From positions 1 through 54,799 of the forward strand of contig JAIXYV010000116.1 of the NCBI GenBank assembly GCA_027490055.1: a stretch of 54,799 nucleotides of DNA, written 5' to 3'. The position numbers and the translations under genes were made by a program. Under the pieces are notes generated by a model. The model was given only the letters and a program-made list of their open reading frames with translations. It was not told the DNA's origin and ran no database searches. Below, in pieces: positions 1,628 through 27,339 of this stretch (positions within the stretch are counted from its first letter, which is position 1; each line of letters starts with the position of its first letter). The DNA comes from Bacteroidota bacterium. GTDB lineage: Bacteria; Bacteroidota; Bacteroidia; NS11-12g; UBA955.

Positions 1628-3988
1628 CTATTCTAACACAATCTTCTGAGTTCTGCCGCTTTTATCTGTAATAATGTAAATTCCCCTTGCCCAAGTGGCC
1701 GTTTCTACCCTTATCTCCCCATTTACCCGCTCCCACTCGCCCAGCCTCTGCCCAATACTCGTATAGATACTGTATACTTCTCCTGCCTCTCCCTCTATAC
1801 ATATATATGTACTGCCAGGATTGGGATATACCTTTATACCGCTCTCCCCTATCTCTTCTATCCCATTGTCCTTACTCACTCTTATTATAGTAGCATTCTT
1901 GGTGCGTATCGGTTCGTTCAAATCAAAATAGATCATCGCATTGTTATATATACTGTCGCCAACCCTTAAGTCAGATTTAACCATGGCGTCAAATTCAATA
2001 TAACCTTTACTGCCCGCTTCCGATAAACTCTTAGGCGCTAAACCAATATCCTCGAAGGTCCATGTCAATACATTGCCATTGCTGCTTACCTTGTAAGCAT
2101 GACTGGCTCCACGCATCCTAAACTCATACACTGGTATATTGACATTTAATGTGTCAACGACTCTAACCCTATCTGCATAATCATTCCCTTCATTCTGAAA
2201 GTCGATGTGGTACCTCACCAGCTTTATACCACTATATATCTTTCCCTCCGGAACACTGTACTTGGTATTCGGATCGTAACTATAGACGCATCTGTGTACA
2301 ATACTGTCTCTGTTAGCTGTTGTGTCTTCGCCAGCTATCTGTTCTATATAGGCTTTATGACATACCCGCTGATTCAAAGAAAAGTTGCTGAATGGATACT
2401 TCAAACTCAATACAATATGCTTCTCCTCGGCAAAGCCTACACTTAGCTCGTAGTATAATCTGTTGCCAATTTTACTTTTGTAGGCCGGTATACTAGTTAT
2501 ATACTCTGTACCAGGCGCCAGATCAATATGGAATTTAACCGGAGTGGCCGCTGACTGATTACAGCCTTCTCTATATACTATATAGGTGGAGCTAAAGTTC
2601 TGATCAATTCTCTGCCTTCCCGATACCAAGGTTCTCACCCTTACATCCAATACGCTATTGCTTTTCCCTTTATACGCAAAGTTGATAATATCAGTAGTAA
2701 ATGTATTATTAAAGGTTCGAGAACAAATTGCTGAACTATAAGTCAGGCTATAACACGAATCCAGCCTTACGCCATCAATCGGTCTGAAACAAACATCTTC
2801 ATTGGCTAAGGGATAATAGACTGCCGTGCCATCTGTAGTACCTGTCTGAAACTCGGTGAAGCCATACAATTCGGTTACCGGCACAGACAAAGGAACATCT
2901 CCAGCATCGTACTCATTGTTTTGGTTATGATCAATAAAGGTGCGCATTACAATGGTATCCTGCTGTTGATGCGCCAAAACAGTTTGATCCATCTCTGCTA
3001 TCCCATGGCAGTTAAATTTATTAAACCACAAGTCGTCATTGCCATAGACATAGACCTTGTTTTTATTCGTGATATATCTCAAAGGGAAACTATCTCTGTA
3101 TTTAAACCTGAAATTTCGCTCCATCTGTTTAAGGTTTACAAATGAATATACATCGTAAGTTATTGAGGTGCTTAAGGGTTTAACGCTTAATACGACTCTG
3201 TTGCCAATAGTGCTTAATGAGGGGCGGTCCATATTAGTGGTAATAGAATCCATCTTGCTACCAAATAAAATCTTACTGATGGTCGATTGATTTTCGGTCA
3301 CATATAAATAAGACCCCACGCCTGTTAAACCTCTTATAGTATTACTAATTTTATGCGGACTGGTGTAATAACGTGTCCAGACACCTGCACTGTAACAGTA
3401 AACACTATTATTAGCGCTTATCGCCAGCGTATCCCCTTTCATGGCCAGATGGTATTCGGGTGATTCAATTTTAAAGTCCATTGAAACCAATCCGTTGCTG
3501 TTCACCTGATAAACCTTACTCTTAGGATAACCAATGACACTATCAATAGTAGTTACCAGATACACCACATTCTTAAACTTATATAAGCGTACTTTCTCCC
3601 AATGACGGTTCACCAGATTATTATCCAGAAAAACACCGATTCTATTCCAGCTACTACCATTAACGGTATATATAGCAAATTTGCCGGTGTCATTAACACC
3701 AGCAACTACCATTTGGTTATTGGAAAGGAAATGACAATCTGGAATTAGATACTGCGGATCGAGAATCTTTTTAACGGTCGGGAGCAAGGTCCATTTTTTA
3801 GTTTGTGGCGACCATCGTTGCATGATACAGGTATCAGCATAGGTATACTTTAGGGTATAAACCTGACCGCCAGTATCGGTAGCGGCGCAATCAATCGGCT
3901 GACCAGTGCCATCTCCAATTGGTTGTATCTGTGCCTTGACACTCACAAACATCAGCAAAAAAAGTAAGCCTATTAGTTGTTTCATCAT
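1628..3988 (-). CDS. secreted protein with beta-propeller-like N-terminus, DUF7619-like domain and T9SS type A sorting domain
   Basis: A 786-residue protein. An N-terminal signal peptide ends near AQ at residues 19-20. Residues about 20-340 are beta-rich and kelch/propeller-like. A DHNQNNEYDAGD segment near residue 355 looks like a calcium-binding or SdrD-type linker. Residues about 585-700 (beginning YDPNTKY, with FQNEGNDYADRV and IYFDLNEPIRT) resemble the DUF7619 domain common in Bacteroidota secreted proteins. The last ~75 residues (KVYPNPG ... GIYIITDKSGRTQKIVLE) match a T9SS type A C-terminal signal, so the protein should cross the outer membrane and be surface-anchored or released. Its ATG overlaps the end of the upstream gene by 4 bases, so it is the third gene of the sigma-factor operon. 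Its ligand is unknown. Confidence 0.85.
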   Translation of the reverse strand: MMKQLIGLLFLLMFVSVKAQIQPIGDGTGQPIDCAATDTGGQVYTLKYTYADTCIMQRWSPQTKKWTLLPTVKKILDPQYLIPDCHFLSNNQMVVAGVNDTGKFAIYTVNGSSWNRIGVFLDNNLVNRHWEKVRLYKFKNVVYLVTTIDSVIGYPKSKVYQVNSNGLVSMDFKIESPEYHLAMKGDTLAISANNSVYCYSAGVWTRYYTSPHKISNTIRGLTGVGSYLYVTENQSTISKILFGSKMDSITTNMDRPSLSTIGNRVVLSVKPLSTSITYDVYSFVNLKQMERNFRFKYRDSFPLRYITNKNKVYVYGNDDLWFNKFNCHGIAEMDQTVLAHQQQDTIVMRTFIDHNQNNEYDAGDVPLSVPVTELYGFTEFQTGTTDGTAVYYPLANEDVCFRPIDGVRLDSCYSLTYSSAICSRTFNNTFTTDIINFAYKGKSNSVLDVRVRTLVSGRQRIDQNFSSTYIVYREGCNQSAATPVKFHIDLAPGTEYITSIPAYKSKIGNRLYYELSVGFAEEKHIVLSLKYPFSNFSLNQRVCHKAYIEQIAGEDTTANRDSIVHRCVYSYDPNTKYSVPEGKIYSGIKLVRYHIDFQNEGNDYADRVRVVDTLNVNIPVYEFRMRGASHAYKVSSNGNVLTWTFEDIGLAPKSLSEAGSKGYIEFDAMVKSDLRVGDSIYNNAMIYFDLNEPIRTKNATIIRVSKDNGIEEIGESGIKVYPNPGSTYICIEGEAGEVYSIYTSIGQRLGEWERVNGEIRVETATWARGIYIITDKSGRTQKIVLE

Positions 3989-5409
3989 TTTGTTATTTTA
4001 TACCTTAAGTTTAATGCCAGCGACTGACTGACCATCTTACTTCTTAGTTCGCCAGAGCCTAAATCGTAACGCAGATTCATAGATTGCATACCCGCTTCTG
4101 CGCTTAGCCACCACTTACCATACAACCTTCTGCTATAGCCTAAGCTGGCATTTAATCCGAAACTTAGTGGATTCTGAATCATATCGCCTGCTTGTTTGTA
4201 TGACAATTCATTTAAAGAGAAACTTGACCCAGTGCTCGCAACCAAAGCCGACAGATTGACGCCCGCCCCTATTAGCAATTCAGAATTCTTATTAATAGGC
4301 AAACTATAGTTCACTAATAATGGCAAAGACAGAAAGCTGTATGACTGACTCTCTCTAACATTTATTACTAATGGATTGGAAGTATCCGGCACTGTTATAT
4401 AACTCAATATAGTATTATCGGGCAAACGAATTGGAATCTCTCTTAACTTATAAGTGAAGTTGACCTGATTATTAATCCTCTTATAATGTAATCCGGTGTT
4501 GAAACGCAGTCCTACCCTCTGAGACAATTTAAATTCAAAGTTCAGATTCACAAACATCGCCGACTGGTTTTCATTAGACATTTTGAAGACATTCTTTGAA
4601 TCTTTGTGCAATCGCTCTTCATTGCTAAGCCCTTTTACCTCGCTTCTCACTCCCGCAATACCAGCACTGCCTCCTATAATGAATCTAACTTTTTCGGGCT
4701 TTTTGGTTGAATCATCGTCTTTATTAGTCTTCTTTACAGTAGTATCTTTATTATTCAAGCTGGCTGTTGAGTTATCTGATTGTGCAGTTTCCGCTTTGTT
4801 CTCTTCAGCATTACCCTCTTTAGCGGACTGATTTTCTATTGGATCTTCGTTGTCGGACACACTCATCTGTAGCTTCTCAACCGCCTTCTTTAGACCATCA
4901 TTAATATCCGCTAATTGAATTTGATGATCTACAGAGCCCCATTTCATAGGCTCTGTGTTTTCAGGCAAATCCTTGCCAGCACTTGATTTGGATGCTCCGT
5001 CCTTTACAATCTTTCTTCCTGAAGAAGTCTGAGTTTTATATGGTTCAAAGCCTTTTGTTCCTTTAACGGCATTGAAGTCATTATCTATTGAAGGTTCTGT
5101 TTTAGCAAGTGATTCGGCACCTGGGTCCATTTGTGGAGTAGCTTTAGAAGTCGCAGACGCATGGGAGATCGTCTGTGTAGTTGTATCAGAAATTGCAGTT
5201 TGTACAGATGGTTTTGAAATCAAATAATAGGAGAAGGCACCGGAAAGCAATAGCAAACCGGCTCCTACAAAAAACCAAGGCAGGAAGCGTCTCTTCTTTT
5301 TTTCTTCCAGTTCCGCACGCAGCCGCTCCCATTGGCCATCGTGCAGTGGTTCGTGATGCTCAAATAAAGCATCCTTCAATGCTGTATTGAGCTTATTGTT
5401 TGATTTCAT
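3985..5409 (-). CDS. single-pass membrane protein with C-terminal outer-membrane-type beta-barrel domain, putative anti-sigma partner
   Basis: A 474-residue protein. Residues 1-40 are charged and cytoplasmic by prediction, with a short F-x-P-x-W pattern (LFEHHEPLHDGQWERL) like that at the N-terminus of other Bacteroidota membrane proteins encoded beside ECF sigma factors. Residues 43-64 form one transmembrane helix. Residues 65-235 are a low-complexity Ser/Lys/Asp/Glu-rich linker. Residues about 240-474 have the alternating pattern of a PorT-like or OmpA-like barrel and end in LNLRYKITK. The start overlaps the sigma-factor gene by 17 bases, and the stop overlaps the next gene. The anti-sigma role is inferred from position and the N-terminus. 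Joining an inner-membrane helix to a barrel domain is topologically odd, so the barrel may instead fold in the periplasm. Confidence 0.7.
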   Translation of the reverse strand: MKSNNKLNTALKDALFEHHEPLHDGQWERLRAELEEKKKRRFLPWFFVGAGLLLLSGAFSYYLISKPSVQTAISDTTTQTISHASATSKATPQMDPGAESLAKTEPSIDNDFNAVKGTKGFEPYKTQTSSGRKIVKDGASKSSAGKDLPENTEPMKWGSVDHQIQLADINDGLKKAVEKLQMSVSDNEDPIENQSAKEGNAEENKAETAQSDNSTASLNNKDTTVKKTNKDDDSTKKPEKVRFIIGGSAGIAGVRSEVKGLSNEERLHKDSKNVFKMSNENQSAMFVNLNFEFKLSQRVGLRFNTGLHYKRINNQVNFTYKLREIPIRLPDNTILSYITVPDTSNPLVINVRESQSYSFLSLPLLVNYSLPINKNSELLIGAGVNLSALVASTGSSFSLNELSYKQAGDMIQNPLSFGLNASLGYSRRLYGKWWLSAEAGMQSMNLRYDLGSGELRSKMVSQSLALNLRYKITK

Positions 5410-5944
5410 TTTTCTTTAATTGTGTTTTAACTAATTCGGCCAGTGCTTTTTTAGCGCGACTGTATTGAGCGCGCGAGGCCTCCTCGCTTATTTGTAATCT
5501 CTCTGCTATTTCTTTATGGCTCATGTCATCTACCACAAACATGTTAATAATAATTTGCTGATTGATGCTTAATCGACCGAGCAGCTTCATGGCCATCTCG
5601 GCTTCAAAAGACACTTCTTCTTCGGTATCTGTCTCCTGAATATCCAGGGCATAATCTGAAATATGCTCTACCATCAAAGCACTTTTCTTTTTCCTCAGAA
5701 AATCCAGTGCGGTATTGATGCCCACTCTGCTGATCCAGGTTTTTAGGGAGCTGCCGCCTTTAAAGGATTCGATAGACCGGTACACCTTCATCATGGCATC
5801 GTGAAAGATTTCTTCTGCATCTTCGCGATTACCGGCATACCTCAAACTCAGTCCCATCAATACAGGACCATACACATCATACAAATGCTTCTGAGCTTTT
5901 ATATCATTTTTAATGCATTTCGCTATTAGTGTTTTTTCATCCAA
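5393..5944 (-). CDS. ECF-type RNA polymerase sigma factor (sigma-70 family)
   Basis: A 183-residue protein with the two ECF regions. Region 2 spans about residues 10-85 (AEEIFHDAMMKVYRSI, then LKTWISRVGINTALDFLRKK). Region 4 spans about 120-175, with a helix-turn-helix (MSHKEIAERLQISEEASRAQYSRAKKAL). It should direct RNA polymerase to a small regulon, probably including its own operon. The start is a TTG; no in-frame ATG precedes region 2, and the frame fits the family from this point. It heads an overlapping operon with a membrane protein and a T9SS-secreted protein, which suggests envelope or surface sensing. The intergenic region upstream carries a minus-strand TATTTTCG, a variant -7 box. 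Confidence 0.92.
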   Translation of the reverse strand: MDEKTLIAKCIKNDIKAQKHLYDVYGPVLMGLSLRYAGNREDAEEIFHDAMMKVYRSIESFKGGSSLKTWISRVGINTALDFLRKKKSALMVEHISDYALDIQETDTEEEVSFEAEMAMKLLGRLSINQQIIINMFVVDDMSHKEIAERLQISEEASRAQYSRAKKALAELVKTQLKKNEIKQ

Positions 5945-6064
5945 AAGGAACCGTGTTTAGTTGTATAGACGAAAATATGTAAAATATGTGACAGATTTTT
6001 TTGGATTTTGTAAATATCTGAATCACCGTATACTAAAATCAGCCTAAATTGCATTCTCTATTTT

Positions 6065-9000
6065 ATGTCTCCTATCCGCCTGATCGTCATTTTACTCTTC
6101 ATTTGCCAGTCGGCGATGGCTCAAAGCTTTGTCGTTAATGATTCTTGCACTGGCAATATCACCACCTATACCCGAATCAACGATTCACTTTATGCCGTTC
6201 AAGCCTATTTCAGGCAGCAGCCTATCTTTAAAGGTTACTTGTATTTCCCGGTGCTTAATGAACAATACGATCCGGAAGTTACCACCCAATATGACGACTA
6301 TTACAACCGGACCACTCAAACCGGCAGGTGTACCACATGGACAAACAATGGCTACATCAAGACCATATCCAATTATGAACCAGTAAAAAAAGAATCTGAA
6401 AAATGGACCTTTGTTAATGGGAAGATGGAAACCCACACCTTGTATAAGCCCTCTTATTATTTGAGTGAACAATATGACACCGCCGGGAAACTGACCTATT
6501 CGAACCTTGACGATTACCGAAATTACGGCAAGCGAACAAACATACAACGCGTTAAAGGTAAACTTAAAAAAATCCATTACATTGAAGATCGCAGCAATGG
6601 CGCGTTTTATCCTAAAAATGGTGTAACAAAATACTACAACATCAATGATGAAATCCAGCAGGAACTAATCTATTTCAAAAATTCTTCCCGCATTAAGAGG
6701 ACGACATACTACGACGAAGAGAACATCAATATCTATGAAAACGATATAGAGGGAAATGAAATCTTGGCAGAAACCAAAGACCGCAAGACCAAACAAACTA
6801 CTTACATCAGAAAAAGTCGCTATTTAAAAGATGCTAATGGATTTGTGTACGACTATCTCAAATGGGAAGGATCCGACACCAGCTTTATTGCCCGACGTTC
6901 ATTAAAAGACTCTAGCATCTATGCTTACAGGTACAATACCGATTACTATATCTGGTTTAAAAACGGTTTGTTCAATGCCAACGTCTTTAATCACGATACA
7001 TTTGATCAATACGACCGGGTAGAGTATAGACAGAAAGGCAAACATCTTTTTGTGAAAGCCTGGAAAAACGGGCAGTTTAAAATTTGTCGCCATATTGCCT
7101 ATCCAGATTTTCAAACCAACTTTCAGTATTTCCCCTATCCGGTTAAAGAATTAAATGAACAGTTATCCTATTTTAATTACACCTTTTCGGATTACACCTA
7201 TAAATATACGGTGAATGATCCAGATATTGAGAGCGATGAAATCCATTACATCTGCAATTTCACCGACAGCTTTTATTCCAATGCTCAACTTAGCGGTATC
7301 CATACTTTTCACGATGACACAATTATCTATTATAACATGATCAATGGAAAGCCCCAGATTGCCTACCATTCTCATTTCCTAAAACCGATTAAAGACATCA
7401 ATCAATGTGCAACTGGCATGAAAAATCTGCAGGGCGAATGGACCATTCCAGCACGTTATGATGAAATACGACCAATATTTTCAGACACATCCCTCATCTA
7501 CTTTTGTTTGGCTGGCGATTATACCACAGTGTATAAGTGGAATGGCCAATTGTTATTACCAACAACAAAGGATATTATTACACCAGGAAAGTATGACGGC
7601 GACTATAATAATATCTGGTGCCTAAACCAAAAACTAACCGACTCCCTACATCTTAGCAATAACATCATCCTTCAAATAAGGAACGAGGCAACCAATAAAC
7701 ATCGTTTCATCAATCTTAAAAACGAGTTGCTGATTAGTTTACCTTATAGAATGTATGTCATGTCCGATTTCAGAGAAGAAGGATTGGAAAATATGTCCTT
7801 TAACATTTCAGATTCTTTGGGCAGAGTCGGTTTTATAGATTTAAAAGGGCAGTATTTCCTTTGCAAATACTCTTTATTATTCCCTTTAGTGAACGGCGAC
7901 AGGCTGATGCGACTGGACAGCTCTAAGGACATTTATATCATTACAGCTGAGCATAAGATATTAGACATTCCGCCATTTGCTGATTACAGAAAATTAAAAG
8001 ACAACGACTCTTTAATCATGTTAATCAATCACGATAGCTCTTTTAGCATCTATAATATCTTCAATAGACTAGTCCCTTTAGTGAACCACCGCTTCAAACT
8101 TTATGACAACGCCGACAAAAATGGTTTGTTCCAGGCACATCTAAATGGTAAATCTGGCATTGTCAATCAATATCTTCAAACAGTCATCCCCTTTAAGTAC
8201 ACCCAAATTTTTGTCACGGGTCAGGACTATTATATGTGTCGTAACGCAGACACCACAGATTTTTACACGCCATTCGGTCAATTCGCCCACCGAATTGTCT
8301 GTGATACGATCTATCACGCCTATAATTACAACTTCGATTATTATGGTTACCCTTACCAGGTCAATAACTACTATTACGGAGGTGGGCGATATAATAGTTC
8401 TTACTGGTTAGCGTATTCTAAGAATGGAAAATTTGGCTTAATAAATTTAAGAGGAAAATTACTGACTAATCAATTATATGATAAAATCGCCACCTCTACA
8501 TCTACCAATTATTTCATTTTCTTCCAGAAATCGAACATCTCTACTGGTCATCTTGAATTGGACACCATACAAATAAGAAATAATTTCCCGGCAGAAACCT
8601 ACTTCTACTATCAAAACATCATCAATTCGACTGACAATGGCATCATTAACTATCAAGGCGAGGTAATTGCTACAGAAATCACATCTGTCAATACCCCTGT
8701 CAGTCGTTATGGCAATTCGAGTATTTTCAAAAATGACAAGTTATATGGAATTATTAATGTCATGGGCGAATGGATTTTGAAATCCGATCAATATCAGCAA
8801 TGCAATATCAGGAATGAAGACGGACTGGCTTATGTAACCAATAACGAAGGCAAGGCGGGCGTGATAGATTGTTCGGGTAAAGAAATTGTGAAGACCGAAC
8901 ACAAAATGATCAGTTACGAACCTCGTTACCATATATTGTGGCATTCCGATTTAATTAATCTGAGCAATACTGTTTACAGCGAAGAAACCCATAACATCTG

Positions 9001-10126
9001 GCAGATTAGCAATGGCACTAAACAAATACGAGATACGCTGGACTATCCAACTAATTTTATAAATGGATACAGCATAGTTAAAAATCGTTACAATTATTAT
9101 GGTATTATAGATTCGGCCCTGAACGTTCCGTATGGTTTCCGCTTTAAATCTTACAACACCATCATGAACAATCAGTGCATCTTAAAAGACAGCAGCGGAC
9201 AATCGTGGTTAATGGACGGCGATTTTAAGCGGATAAAAACTTTTAAATCTAATAAAATCAGTCTGCTTAATGATACCATGTTAATGGTCTTTAATGGCAA
9301 CATGAGTTATACCATGACCATCAGCGGACAAGTTTTAGATTCTTCTATGAATTTCTTTGCCGAATTTCCTAAATCTACTTTTAGCACTTACTGGAACGAT
9401 GAGGATAATATTGAAGAGCGCCTTTATGATAATGAGGAAGAATATTATGAAGATCTTGAAGAAAACGAAGTAGAAGATACTGAAGTGGCAAGTATGAGGG
9501 ACACTTGCAGTGATGCTCAGATTAATTTTATGAAAATTGTCAATCTATACATGGATGCATCTGAAAGCAACATCTATTACGGAAAAGAGATTTTCCCTAC
9601 TCCGAACTATCAATATCGCGACAATTATTATTACGACTACCCTAATGAATTAAATCCTGGAATTTTCACCTATAATATAGCAGGATTTTGCACATTGGCC
9701 GCATACGAAGCTTCGCGCGTTAGTCTGAGTCAGCTCGACCGCTTTACCAATTTATATATAGACGGCCATTCCGGACGCCTGTTAAACTACACCTATAATA
9801 TGGGTCGCGATTACAACAACGACCTCTACACCAACTTTTATTTCAGTGACAATAACATCATCTATGAATTTATTTTAAGCGATTTAATAGAACCCACTAA
9901 GCATGCTGAGTTTGACCAACTGGTCTTAAAAACATTGGAGCGACTGGAGTTACAGAATATTCCTTGTTATAAGTCGCCGGACTTTATTGCCTTGCTCAAC
10001 GACAAGATGAAAGCGGGCAAAGATGGCATTGAGTTAAAAGTCGAGTCAGACATCAGCATTACTATTTCTTATGAAGATTTAAAAACCATGATGAGGGAGG
10101 TGTGGAGAGAGAAGTTATTGGAGTGA
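6065..10126 (+). CDS. very large secreted WG-repeat protein
   Basis: A 1353-residue protein with a signal peptide (cleavage near AMAQS, residue ~20). Residues about 130-260 contain short Tyr-rich repeats reminiscent of MORN/YwqK-type antitoxin repeats. WG-type repeats (G-x-x-G-hydrophobic-hydrophobic ... P-x-x-Y-D) occur near residues 450, 695, 787, 890, 927 and 1011 (for example GKSGIVNQYLQTVIPFKY). An acidic linker lies near residues 1110-1142. The C-terminal ~200 residues (from DTCSDAQINFMK, with the segment DGHSGRLLNY) loosely resemble DUF3298/RsiV-like domains, but this is weak. No T9SS signal is visible at the C-terminus. It stands alone in a plus-strand unit and ends 6 bases from the convergent ribE. 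WG repeats are generally binding scaffolds; no specific function can be assigned. Confidence 0.8.
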   Translation: MSPIRLIVILLFICQSAMAQSFVVNDSCTGNITTYTRINDSLYAVQAYFRQQPIFKGYLYFPVLNEQYDPEVTTQYDDYYNRTTQTGRCTTWTNNGYIKTISNYEPVKKESEKWTFVNGKMETHTLYKPSYYLSEQYDTAGKLTYSNLDDYRNYGKRTNIQRVKGKLKKIHYIEDRSNGAFYPKNGVTKYYNINDEIQQELIYFKNSSRIKRTTYYDEENINIYENDIEGNEILAETKDRKTKQTTYIRKSRYLKDANGFVYDYLKWEGSDTSFIARRSLKDSSIYAYRYNTDYYIWFKNGLFNANVFNHDTFDQYDRVEYRQKGKHLFVKAWKNGQFKICRHIAYPDFQTNFQYFPYPVKELNEQLSYFNYTFSDYTYKYTVNDPDIESDEIHYICNFTDSFYSNAQLSGIHTFHDDTIIYYNMINGKPQIAYHSHFLKPIKDINQCATGMKNLQGEWTIPARYDEIRPIFSDTSLIYFCLAGDYTTVYKWNGQLLLPTTKDIITPGKYDGDYNNIWCLNQKLTDSLHLSNNIILQIRNEATNKHRFINLKNELLISLPYRMYVMSDFREEGLENMSFNISDSLGRVGFIDLKGQYFLCKYSLLFPLVNGDRLMRLDSSKDIYIITAEHKILDIPPFADYRKLKDNDSLIMLINHDSSFSIYNIFNRLVPLVNHRFKLYDNADKNGLFQAHLNGKSGIVNQYLQTVIPFKYTQIFVTGQDYYMCRNADTTDFYTPFGQFAHRIVCDTIYHAYNYNFDYYGYPYQVNNYYYGGGRYNSSYWLAYSKNGKFGLINLRGKLLTNQLYDKIATSTSTNYFIFFQKSNISTGHLELDTIQIRNNFPAETYFYYQNIINSTDNGIINYQGEVIATEITSVNTPVSRYGNSSIFKNDKLYGIINVMGEWILKSDQYQQCNIRNEDGLAYVTNNEGKAGVIDCSGKEIVKTEHKMISYEPRYHILWHSDLINLSNTVYSEETHNIWQISNGTKQIRDTLDYPTNFINGYSIVKNRYNYYGIIDSALNVPYGFRFKSYNTIMNNQCILKDSSGQSWLMDGDFKRIKTFKSNKISLLNDTMLMVFNGNMSYTMTISGQVLDSSMNFFAEFPKSTFSTYWNDEDNIEERLYDNEEEYYEDLEENEVEDTEVASMRDTCSDAQINFMKIVNLYMDASESNIYYGKEIFPTPNYQYRDNYYYDYPNELNPGIFTYNIAGFCTLAAYEASRVSLSQLDRFTNLYIDGHSGRLLNYTYNMGRDYNNDLYTNFYFSDNNIIYEFILSDLIEPTKHAEFDQLVLKTLERLELQNIPCYKSPDFIALLNDKMKAGKDGIELKVESDISITISYEDLKTMMREVWREKLLE

Positions 10127-24932: not shown

Positions 24933-25035
24933 GTTGAATTTGGCTTTATCACAAAGCGAAGATGCAGTTTCATCAATAAATTGTATTTTTGTCTTCGTCA
25001 TTATTTTGCCATAAAAACTATTGATCCAAAATAAA

Positions 25036-27339
25036 ATGAATTATTTCAAGTTGAATCTGTCTATGATATCAAGAACCTGCTGGATATTTTTTTTAAGTAT
25101 CCTCTCGTTACCAAGTGCTTTATTAGCGAATAATCCGCCCGTTAGTTTAGGTCAGTGGCGCGTGCATCTGCCATATAGAAATGTGAGTGTAATTGAAGAA
25201 ACCAAAGACAAAATCTATTGCGCAGGCAGCTTTGGATTATTCTCATACGACCGCGGAGATGGTTTCACAGAGCGACTCTCCCCTATCAATGGCTTTGGCG
25301 GATACAATGCTCAGGCCATGGCTTACGACCAGGCATCCGATCAGTTGATGATTGCTTATTCAGATTGCAGAATCGAACTATTGAAAGGCAAAAGCATAAC
25401 ACGAAATGACGATATTTTCAACAAAACCATCGTTGGAGAAAAAAGAATCTACCACATCAATATCGTTGATGGCATTGCTTATTTATCTACCTCCTTTGGC
25501 TTGCTTGAATTTAACCTCAGCAAAAACGAAATAAGAAACTCGTACCTCAATATCGGACCGGGCGGCACTGTCATAGAAGTTTTCGGATCATGCCTCAACA
25601 ACGACAGCGTATACATCTCAACTAAATCTGGCATCTACAGAGGCAGCCTGAATCCTAATGTCAATCTTGGCATTAGCAGCAACTGGTTTCTCTGCAAAAG
25701 CGCCAGCGTTAAATCTTCTCATATTGCTTCATACAAAGGCAGTATTTACACCGAGATAGATTCTCAGTTGTACAAGTATAGCAATGCGAACTGGACTGTC
25801 ATTGACCCAAATCCAAAAGTAATTGTAACCAATATCGATGTCGACCACGACAAACTGATAATTGGTATTTATGGTAAATATATCACGACCATAGATGCTA
25901 ACGGCAATAGCAGCAATAAAGGCATCAATGTTCTAAATGAATGTTTGCTCGACGGCAATGGCAATTACTGGTATTCGAGTCCGATAAGCGGTTTGGCATT
26001 TATGAATCCATTCGGACCAGAATTGTATTACTACCCTAACGGACCGCGATCTCATACGTCTTATTCCATGGTTAATGCCTATAACAATTTATATGTGATG
26101 GCAGGCGGCTTGAGAGTAACAACTTATGCGCCGACATTTAATGGCGAGAAGTATTATTATTTCAACAATTTTGAATGGACCAATTCGCCTGAGAATCCAT
26201 TGACTTTGCCTCTTTACGACTATACACACTCTGCATTTAGCAAGCAGTACAACCGTTTATTTATCGGCACACATGGCAAAGGTTTATTGCAAATGGACAA
26301 TGGCGAACCCAAAAAAGTTTGGGATGAAACCAATTCACCATTAAGAGGCCGATTAAATATTTATACGATTGTTTCCGGACTGGCATTAGACAGTCGCTCT
26401 AACTTATGGGTAAGCAATTTCGATGTCGACACCAGTATCCATATGTTGTCGGCTTCAGGCAAATGGACCAGCTATAAAATGCCAACATCCATGACTGGAA
26501 AAATTGCCATCGATAATAAAAACAACAAATGGATTCTGACACCTCAAGCGGGCATGGGCATTATTGCTTTTAGTGATAAAAATACTGCTGACCAGTCTGA
26601 TGACATCAAAGTAGTTCTGAACATTAATAAAGGAACAGGTAATTTACCTTCGGCCAATGTTAATGATATTGCTTTCACAAAATCTGGCGAATTATTAATT
26701 GGCACTGATCAGGGATACGCTAAAATAAGAACCCCTCAGAATGTGTTTGGCAAAGGCGATTATGATGCACAAAGAGTTATTATTTCAGTTGAGGCTAATA
26801 GCAATCTTGGCGGCTATCTGCTTGGTAGCGAAGTCATCAATTGCATCACAGTAGACGGAGGCGACAGAAGGTGGTTTGGCACAAGTAGCGGCGCCTGGTT
26901 AATCGACAGTGATGGAGAGACTATTCTTCAGCATTTCACAAAAGAGAATTCGCCATTGATGAGCGACAATGTTACAAGCATAACAATCATGGAATCTACG
27001 GGAGAAGTTTTTATGGGAACAGACCTTGGTATTGCCTCCTACAGAGCCGATGCCTTGGTTGCTTCAAAAACATTTGAAACATTAAAGATCTATCCTAATC
27101 CTGTACAACCAGACTATCAGGGCGACATCTCTATCAATGGTATGCCAGACAATACTCTGGTAAAAATCACTGACATCAATGGCAGTTTAGTGAATCAAAC
27201 CTATTCAAACGGTGGCATGGCTACCTGGAACGGAAAAACTTTTGATGGCAGCAGAGCTTCATCAGGTGTGTATTTGGTTTTTTGTATTAATCAGGACGGA
27301 TCAGAAACTCAAGTCGGTAAAATATTATTCATCCATTAA
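25036..27339 (+). CDS. porZ: PorZ-like T9SS surface protein, beta-propeller with type A sorting domain
   Basis: About 767 residues. After the signal peptide (ends LPSALLANN), the sequence LGQWRVHLPYRNV, IYCAGSFGLFSYD, YDQASDQLMIAYSDCRIELL matches the PorZ N-terminal beta-propeller. A second propeller with two-component-regulator-type repeats spans about 370-680. The C-terminus (LKIYPNPVQPDYQGDISI ... GVYLVFCINQDG) is a type A T9SS signal, as in Porphyromonas PorZ. PorZ delivers anionic LPS to the sortase PorU on the cell surface. A TTG start at 25021 would add five residues; I prefer the ATG at 25036. It ends 3 bases before recO. The homology is by pattern, so orthology is likely but unproven. 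Confidence 0.75.
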   Translation: MNYFKLNLSMISRTCWIFFLSILSLPSALLANNPPVSLGQWRVHLPYRNVSVIEETKDKIYCAGSFGLFSYDRGDGFTERLSPINGFGGYNAQAMAYDQASDQLMIAYSDCRIELLKGKSITRNDDIFNKTIVGEKRIYHINIVDGIAYLSTSFGLLEFNLSKNEIRNSYLNIGPGGTVIEVFGSCLNNDSVYISTKSGIYRGSLNPNVNLGISSNWFLCKSASVKSSHIASYKGSIYTEIDSQLYKYSNANWTVIDPNPKVIVTNIDVDHDKLIIGIYGKYITTIDANGNSSNKGINVLNECLLDGNGNYWYSSPISGLAFMNPFGPELYYYPNGPRSHTSYSMVNAYNNLYVMAGGLRVTTYAPTFNGEKYYYFNNFEWTNSPENPLTLPLYDYTHSAFSKQYNRLFIGTHGKGLLQMDNGEPKKVWDETNSPLRGRLNIYTIVSGLALDSRSNLWVSNFDVDTSIHMLSASGKWTSYKMPTSMTGKIAIDNKNNKWILTPQAGMGIIAFSDKNTADQSDDIKVVLNINKGTGNLPSANVNDIAFTKSGELLIGTDQGYAKIRTPQNVFGKGDYDAQRVIISVEANSNLGGYLLGSEVINCITVDGGDRRWFGTSSGAWLIDSDGETILQHFTKENSPLMSDNVTSITIMESTGEVFMGTDLGIASYRADALVASKTFETLKIYPNPVQPDYQGDISINGMPDNTLVKITDINGSLVNQTYSNGGMATWNGKTFDGSRASSGVYLVFCINQDGSETQVGKILFIH

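Follow-up and report, generated by a model that had tools for sequence, protein, structure and literature searches.

A three-gene operon encoding a Dma-like, putatively trans-envelope anti-sigma factor apparently dedicated to type IX-secreted surface proteins

Signalling of the FecI/FecR/FecA type leads from the cell surface to the cytoplasm through an extracytoplasmic function (ECF) sigma factor, with a separate TonB-dependent receptor and an inner-membrane anti-sigma factor. The operon analysed here would share this route through an ECF sigma factor, whereas Fec-type systems use two separate proteins for it. It is located on the minus strand of contig JAIXYV010000116.1 of an uncultured Bacteroidota bacterium (assembly GCA_027490055.1; genome of 3.0 Mb, labelled G000), in the stretch from position 1 to 54,799 that is called the window below. 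Its overlapping genes encode an ECF sigma factor, a Dma-like protein of 474 residues and a cargo protein of 786 residues of the type IX secretion system (T9SS) type.

The relay called Dma was first described in gut Bacteroides. It is defined by an N-terminal sigma-binding part, one helix, a disordered tether, a C-terminal barrel and an adjacent ECF sigma factor (PMC13088901; this paper and the others cited below are used for the portions of their text that were available). Dma2 is encoded in a three-gene operon, the deletion of dma2 induces the sigma gene and the downstream genes, and its authors hypothesise an unidentified surface glycan as the trigger (PMC13088901). Compared by description, the window operon shares with Dma the predicted succession of N-terminus, helix, tether and barrel, the adjacent ECF sigma factor and the three-gene organisation. 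However, the third gene of the Dma2 operon is BT_1557 (DUF4943) and the reported phenotypes concern vesicles and polysaccharide loci (PMC13088901), whereas the third gene of the window operon codes for a T9SS-type protein with a predicted propeller, and T9SS surface proteins make up the predicted regulon. The sigma/anti-sigma pair M0N98_03761/03760 of Phocaeicola vulgatus is also similar, as its anti-sigma factor has a predicted outer-membrane barrel and is thereby expected to reach across the periplasm, but its induced genes include a lipopolysaccharide glycosyltransferase and NigD orthologues and the available text mentions no T9SS partner (PMC9308784). In Porphyromonas gingivalis, the PorA-PorXY-SigP pathway feeds an ECF sigma factor from a T9SS surface protein with a C-terminal domain (CTD); it differs by its two-component system and by its control of the T9SS machinery genes, and no spanning anti-sigma factor is mentioned in the part of the paper available (PMC7712824). 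A first reading made from the sequence alone (hereafter the sequence-only reading) had taken the spanning form to be novel. This does not hold, such anti-sigma factors being already published as Dma (PMC13088901) and in Phocaeicola (PMC9308784), as far as the accessible text of both papers goes. The trans-envelope anti-sigma factor is known; the T9SS triad, its conserved promoter and the T9SS-rich predicted regulon are new. The combination of sigma factor, Dma-like protein and T9SS protein was not found in the literature searched, which was open-licence and did not include preprints.

We consider that the operon probably encodes a trans-envelope switch of the Dma type, formed by a sigma and an anti-sigma factor and adapted to type IX secretion, in which the anti-sigma factor is apparently dedicated to T9SS surface proteins. 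The first ~42 residues of the 474-residue protein would hold the ECF sigma factor at the inner membrane. The same chain is predicted to cross this membrane once, to continue through the periplasm in the form of a disordered tether, and to end in an outer-membrane barrel of eight strands. The inhibition would be lifted by some change in the outer membrane or on the cell surface, and the freed sigma factor would transcribe its own operon from the predicted, strongly conserved promoter TGTCAC-N16-CGTCTA and, judging from promoter sites, a small set of exported proteins in the genus, most of them T9SS-tailed. The propeller-plus-stalk T9SS protein would be the output that stays the same from cassette to cassette; more speculatively, it might also be the surface partner read by the barrel. 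If this is true, type IX secretion would be tied to transcription without a two-component system. The partner conserved in the operon, being a predicted secreted protein of the cell surface, is a concrete candidate for a Dma-type signal or feedback. Many paralogous cassettes have this layout, which points to a scheme of general use in the order. The analysis also yields a promoter motif and a list of target genes, both predicted and open to testing.

The sigma factor gene (5393-5944, minus strand, as all features of the operon) starts with TTG and encodes 183 residues. The protein matches the Pfam families Sigma70_r2 (57.9 bits, cut-off 24) and Sigma70_r4_2 (49.1 bits, cut-off 25.7) and the NCBIfam model TIGR02937 of sigma70-ECF factors (89.7 bits, cut-off 42.9); both the TTG start and the length are kept in the orthologues. 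It overlaps the anti-sigma gene by 17 bases (5393-5409), which in turn overlaps the cargo gene by 4 bases (3985-3988); coordinates, strand and overlaps all agree with the three-gene arrangement given by the sequence-only reading. In the 12 orthologous loci fetched, the 17-base overlap was found again in nine (L031, L033, L034, L036-L038, L040-L042), the junction being an overlap of 14 bases in L032, an overlap of 65 in L035 and a gap of 72 in L039, sizes that depend on the starts set by our gene caller. Because the 17-base overlap recurs in nine of 12 orthologous loci and the gene order recurs widely, both exceed what is expected by chance.

A search with the middle protein gave matches in 30 of 59 genomes, including that of the window. 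Forty regions were fetched around these matches, three of which end at contig ends (L034, L038, L059), leaving 37 assessable loci distributed over the order. A third gene with a T9SS tail was detected in 33 of the 37, the tails being assigned by a sequence pattern and the curated models having been run on a subset only. The search for the same three-gene order, proposed from the sequence alone, thus reveals a conserved order. Thirty of these 33 third genes are of the DUF7619 type and three, of ~510 residues, have no DUF7619 (L060, L065, L068), while the T9SS-tailed third gene is missing in L043, L048, L055 and L062. An open reading frame (ORF) of 154 residues intervenes in the cassette of L033, and the frame of the middle protein is split in L070. 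On these comparative grounds the sigma factor, the Dma-like protein and the predicted T9SS cargo form a triad conserved across the order, which is a new finding. Among 78 gene sets headed by the sigma factor, 60 of the 74 counted have an overlap between the sigma gene and the Dma-like gene, and 67 third genes follow within 75 bases, 25 of them with a 4-base overlap (L187 and L188, sigma relatives with 61% identity for which the gene caller gave no sigma ORF, are excluded from the counts). On a tree of 112 sigma factors, the distribution of the T9SS label requires 6 changes, whereas shuffled labels require 30.9; three rows were unlabelled, and the recovery of part of the set through DUF7619 biases the result towards the label.

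The third gene is more variable outside the order. A profile search for Dma in a sample of the phylum matched 80 of 247 genomes (that of the window, 59 of the same class and 20 of the same phylum), with one same-class genome named as having no match and 147 non-matching genomes unlisted; within the class, the majority of the genomes sampled encode Dma-like proteins. In 32 regions from this sample (L292-L323), no T9SS-tailed third gene was seen by the tail pattern, and two of the third genes scanned encode LVIVD-repeat proteins, one above and one below the cut-off. DUF7619 was also considered as a marker of the cassette and rejected: 80 stretches containing this domain were requested, of which 11 were too short and one was a 10-base dummy, and among the 68 usable ones 37 have a directly upstream sigma gene and Dma-like gene and 31 do not. 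Two observations concern the diversity of the cassettes. The window genome encodes six Dma-like proteins (C64, C38, C86, C16, C50, C23), each adjoining an ECF sigma factor, a parallel set of such putative switches. A separate cassette type (L060, L065, L068, L291) has the ~510-residue T9SS third gene without DUF7619, followed by a large gene; it groups on the sigma tree with cassettes devoid of a T9SS gene, possibly an independent T9SS pairing.

The middle protein (3985-5409) is a putative dual membrane-spanning anti-sigma factor. Its structure was predicted with AlphaFold2 on an alignment of 69 sequences. The N-terminus (residues 1-42, 5284-5409), which would be cytoplasmic and bind the sigma factor, displays two short helices (6-16 and 24-34). 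It ends in the motif KKKRR immediately before the predicted inner-membrane helix (residues 43-65, 5215-5283), which is consistent with an N-terminus inside the cell. The periplasmic tether (residues 66-242, 4684-5214) appears mostly disordered from its composition and from its predicted local distance difference test scores (pLDDT), with block means mostly of 38-56 and of 63-69 at its two ends only; its 177 residues include 25 K/R and 29 D/E. A single helix and a charged linker of about 170 residues had been anticipated from the sequence, and the model agrees with both. Residues 243 to 472 (3988-4683) form eight long strands with pLDDT mostly above 90. Foldseek and VIA-align place this barrel with OmpW, OmpA and NspA (best Z 18.9 for NspA over 155 residues with a root-mean-square deviation (rmsd) of 3.0; Z 17 to 18 for OmpA), whereas by sequence it is borderline in Pfam (OMP_b-brl_2, 27.2 bits for a cut-off of 27) and a sequence search for solved relatives of the anti-sigma factor gave nothing significant. 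The outer-membrane-type barrel claimed earlier is therefore predicted as a clear 8-stranded barrel and not as a soluble domain. The helix, tether and barrel, as modelled, and the neighbouring ECF sigma factor agree with the written definition of the Dma proteins, whose sigma factor belongs to group ECF21, and by this architecture the protein is Dma-like.

The cargo protein encoded by the third gene (1628-3988) was modelled from 59 sequences with a mean pLDDT of 85.5. It is predicted to consist of a beta-propeller and of an immunoglobulin (Ig)-like stalk with an isopeptide domain. The propeller covers about residues 18-340 (2969-3937; VIA-align Z 23.0 over 292 residues, rmsd 3.4) and is followed by further all-beta domains, integrin alpha ectodomains, with their propeller-plus-Ig layout, being at the top of the Foldseek ranking. 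The domain DUF7619 (residues 572-700, 1889-2275; Pfam, 110 bits for a cut-off of 27) contains the predicted isopeptide triad K576/D612/N682. A Lys/Asp/Asn triad is listed for this family (PMC12617251, in the part available), and the three residues are conserved in 58, 59 and 59 of the 59 aligned cargos, respectively. The N-terminus is a hydrophobic start ending in KAQ when read by eye, with a helix at residues 3-14 in the model. At the C-terminus, residues 720-783 (1640-1831) resemble a T9SS type A sorting tail with a Pfam match under the threshold, and the residues P722, N723, P724 and G746 are invariant in the 59 cargos. The host genome encodes a T9SS (SprA, 2431.6 bits) and contains 115 sorting-tail matches. 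The T9SS attachment component PorZ is also encoded in the window at 25021-27339 (NF052228, 528.6 bits for a cut-off of 260).

The predicted ECF promoter TGTCAC-N16-CGTCTA is located at 5966-5993 on the minus strand, its end being ~22 bp before the TTG of the sigma gene, and this is the sole exact match in the window. The form TGTMAC-N16/17-CGTCTA precedes nearly all orthologous sigma genes. With TG[TA][CA]AC-N14-19-CGTC, 13 of 79 sigma genes have an upstream site (0.145 expected), and 12 of these 13 belong to the clade of the window, which has 13 members; the remaining member, L033, also has the motif (G015:C2:117687), the gene caller having set its start too early. The wider form TG[CT][AC]AC-N13-19-NGTC[TA] is found within 120 bp upstream of 45 of the 79 sigma genes for 0.165 expected, the maximum in 200 resamplings being two. 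Because of this last result, autoregulation is predicted to be widespread.

The motif was surveyed in 17 genomes of the genus, nine with the cassette and eight without a detected cassette. Out of 36 sites, 33 are in the nine cassette-bearing genomes (nine of them being the cassettes themselves), and the eight other genomes have three. Outside the cassettes, the cassette-bearing genomes thus have 24 sites, of which 23 are intergenic and 20 are positioned 7-28 bp before an ATG. As a control, 30 of the 36 sites found with the reversed pattern were fetched: one is intergenic and none is both intergenic and spaced in this way (20/24 against 0/30, Fisher p 3e-11). Curated T9SS tails were recovered in 13 of the 20 genes behind the ATG-spaced sites (L151, L156, L157, the first of L158, L159, L161, L162, L166, L167, L170, L171, L172 and L174; the tail of L161 passes in NCBIfam only). 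The binomial probability of this proportion is near 2e-13 with 115 tail matches in an assumed 2500 genes, and 4e-9 with an assumed background of 10%. Six of the T9SS-tailed targets are alike (~1045 residues, SprB repeats and DUF7619). The seven other targets have a signal-peptide-like or lipoprotein-like N-terminus when read by eye. Four of them are lipoproteins (three orthologous ones and one with a VWA domain), two look secreted, and the last is a PKD protein truncated at a contig end. The ORF following one of the secreted-looking targets (L163) has a T9SS tail, and in L160 a T9SS gene, additional to the 13, lies 167 bp from the motif site. For the window genome, the predicted targets comprise two T9SS proteins (C34, C115) and the lipoprotein (C100). 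In this genus the predicted regulon is rich in T9SS surface proteins, and the link between sigma factor and T9SS put forward in the sequence-only reading gains support from promoter sites preceding cargo genes. For a second sigma group, tested in 15 genomes, 14 sites and no control site were found. Twelve of these sites belong to the sigma gene of the group; the two others stand before genes of exported proteins, namely an ORF of 216 residues with a T9SS tail (identified by the pattern only) and, 54 bp further on, a secreted-looking protein, respectively.

Several observations weigh against a switch adapted to type IX secretion. No anti-sigma family is recognised by Pfam in the 474-residue protein. 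The tail of the window cargo is under the Pfam cut-off (21.5 for 27 bits) and gives no TIGR04183 row in NCBIfam even at an E-value of 10; this protein is called T9SS-type by orthology and not by its own score, because five of the six orthologous cargos tested pass TIGR04183 (L031, L032, L033, L040, L042; L036 fails). Among the six Dma-like genes of the window genome, a T9SS third gene is certain for two (that of the window and C23), the third gene of C16 being cut by the contig end. In g16, the sister genus, all four cassettes have the motif, but the other g16 sites have no T9SS gene at promoter distance. Finally, the reversed pattern gives 22 sites in the cassette-bearing genomes and 14 in the others, so the raw count of 33 is not far above 22 and the case for the regulon rests on the position of the sites. 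These raw counts would suit a motif that served as a widespread promoter with no relation to this sigma factor, the T9SS association being accidental, as would the site of L286, which precedes a T9SS gene in a genome without a detected cassette. However, as this genome is 83% complete, the cassette may be missing from its assembly. The positional control, the three sites in all held by the eight cassette-free genomes and the presence of the motif before the sigma gene itself in the window clade make an unrelated promoter highly improbable. A cut protein, with the barrel alone in the outer membrane and the N-terminus left as an ordinary inner-membrane anti-sigma factor, is also unlikely, if less so: the disordered tether of 177 residues would be an easy target for a protease, but the domains of Dma proteins are described as extending from the outer membrane to the cytosol (PMC13088901, in its available portion), and barrel and helix are in a single ORF in nearly all cassettes examined, L070 with its split frame being set apart.

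For the trans-envelope switch itself, two triggers have to be weighed. The barrel may be no ligand receptor and may instead report trouble of the outer membrane or of the barrel assembly machinery (BAM), failed assembly or damage freeing the sigma factor and the T9SS proteins, that of the third gene included, being a protective output. We regard this as a serious possibility, though not yet as the probable one. For the related barrel anti-sigma factor of Phocaeicola, induction is reported with the toxin BcpT and also with bacteroidetocin A, an inhibitor of BamA, and the authors infer cell-envelope stress as the signal (PMC9308784, as far as its text was available). Moreover, the status of the outer membrane needs no ligand, and the regulon of the second sigma group shrinks to nearly the operon alone. 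What such stress sensing leaves unexplained is why the same propeller-stalk T9SS third gene persists across diverged paralogous cassettes while the other targets vary. This constancy would be expected if the third protein, displayed by the T9SS, docked on its own barrel and set the switch, the cell reading its display, binding or pulling. The predicted propeller and the stalk with its isopeptide domain would suit this role, and the T9SS CTD protein PorA acting upstream of PorXY-SigP in Porphyromonas is a precedent (PMC7712824, in the part accessible). On the other hand, Dma-like pairs without a T9SS third gene exist outside the order, and co-inheritance in an operon is also expected for an output. 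That each barrel has its propeller protein as a dedicated ligand, so that a single chain tied to the sigma factor in the cytoplasm reads the display or binding of its partner across both membranes, is put forward only tentatively, and docking as the event that sets the switch seems to us rather doubtful. If such a partner existed, type IX secretion would feed back on transcription directly, and genomes with multiple cassettes would run several private pairs in parallel. These data fit envelope-stress sensing as well as cargo sensing.

Some minor observations concern the motif sites and the surroundings of the operon. Three genomes have a conserved lipoprotein, of no known family, encoded downstream of the sigma motif (L152:4247-4804, L164:4348-4908 and L173:610-1167), and in L152 it is followed by an oligopeptide symporter gene. 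In L155:552-580 and L284:527-555, a motif of the sigma type is followed by no ORF and accompanied by a terminator-like hairpin, convergent to a lysS-like gene, which may indicate a sigma-dependent small RNA. Such an RNA was rejected as part of the explanation of the switch, no site of this kind being found at the lysS-like gene in the window genome or in the other genomes of the genus. Next to the operon, a divergent ORF of 1353 residues (6065-10126), which has no NCBIfam match, begins ~70 bp from the operon promoter. The cassette of L032 is also flanked by a divergent gene of 1353 residues, which may be the orthologue of this ORF.

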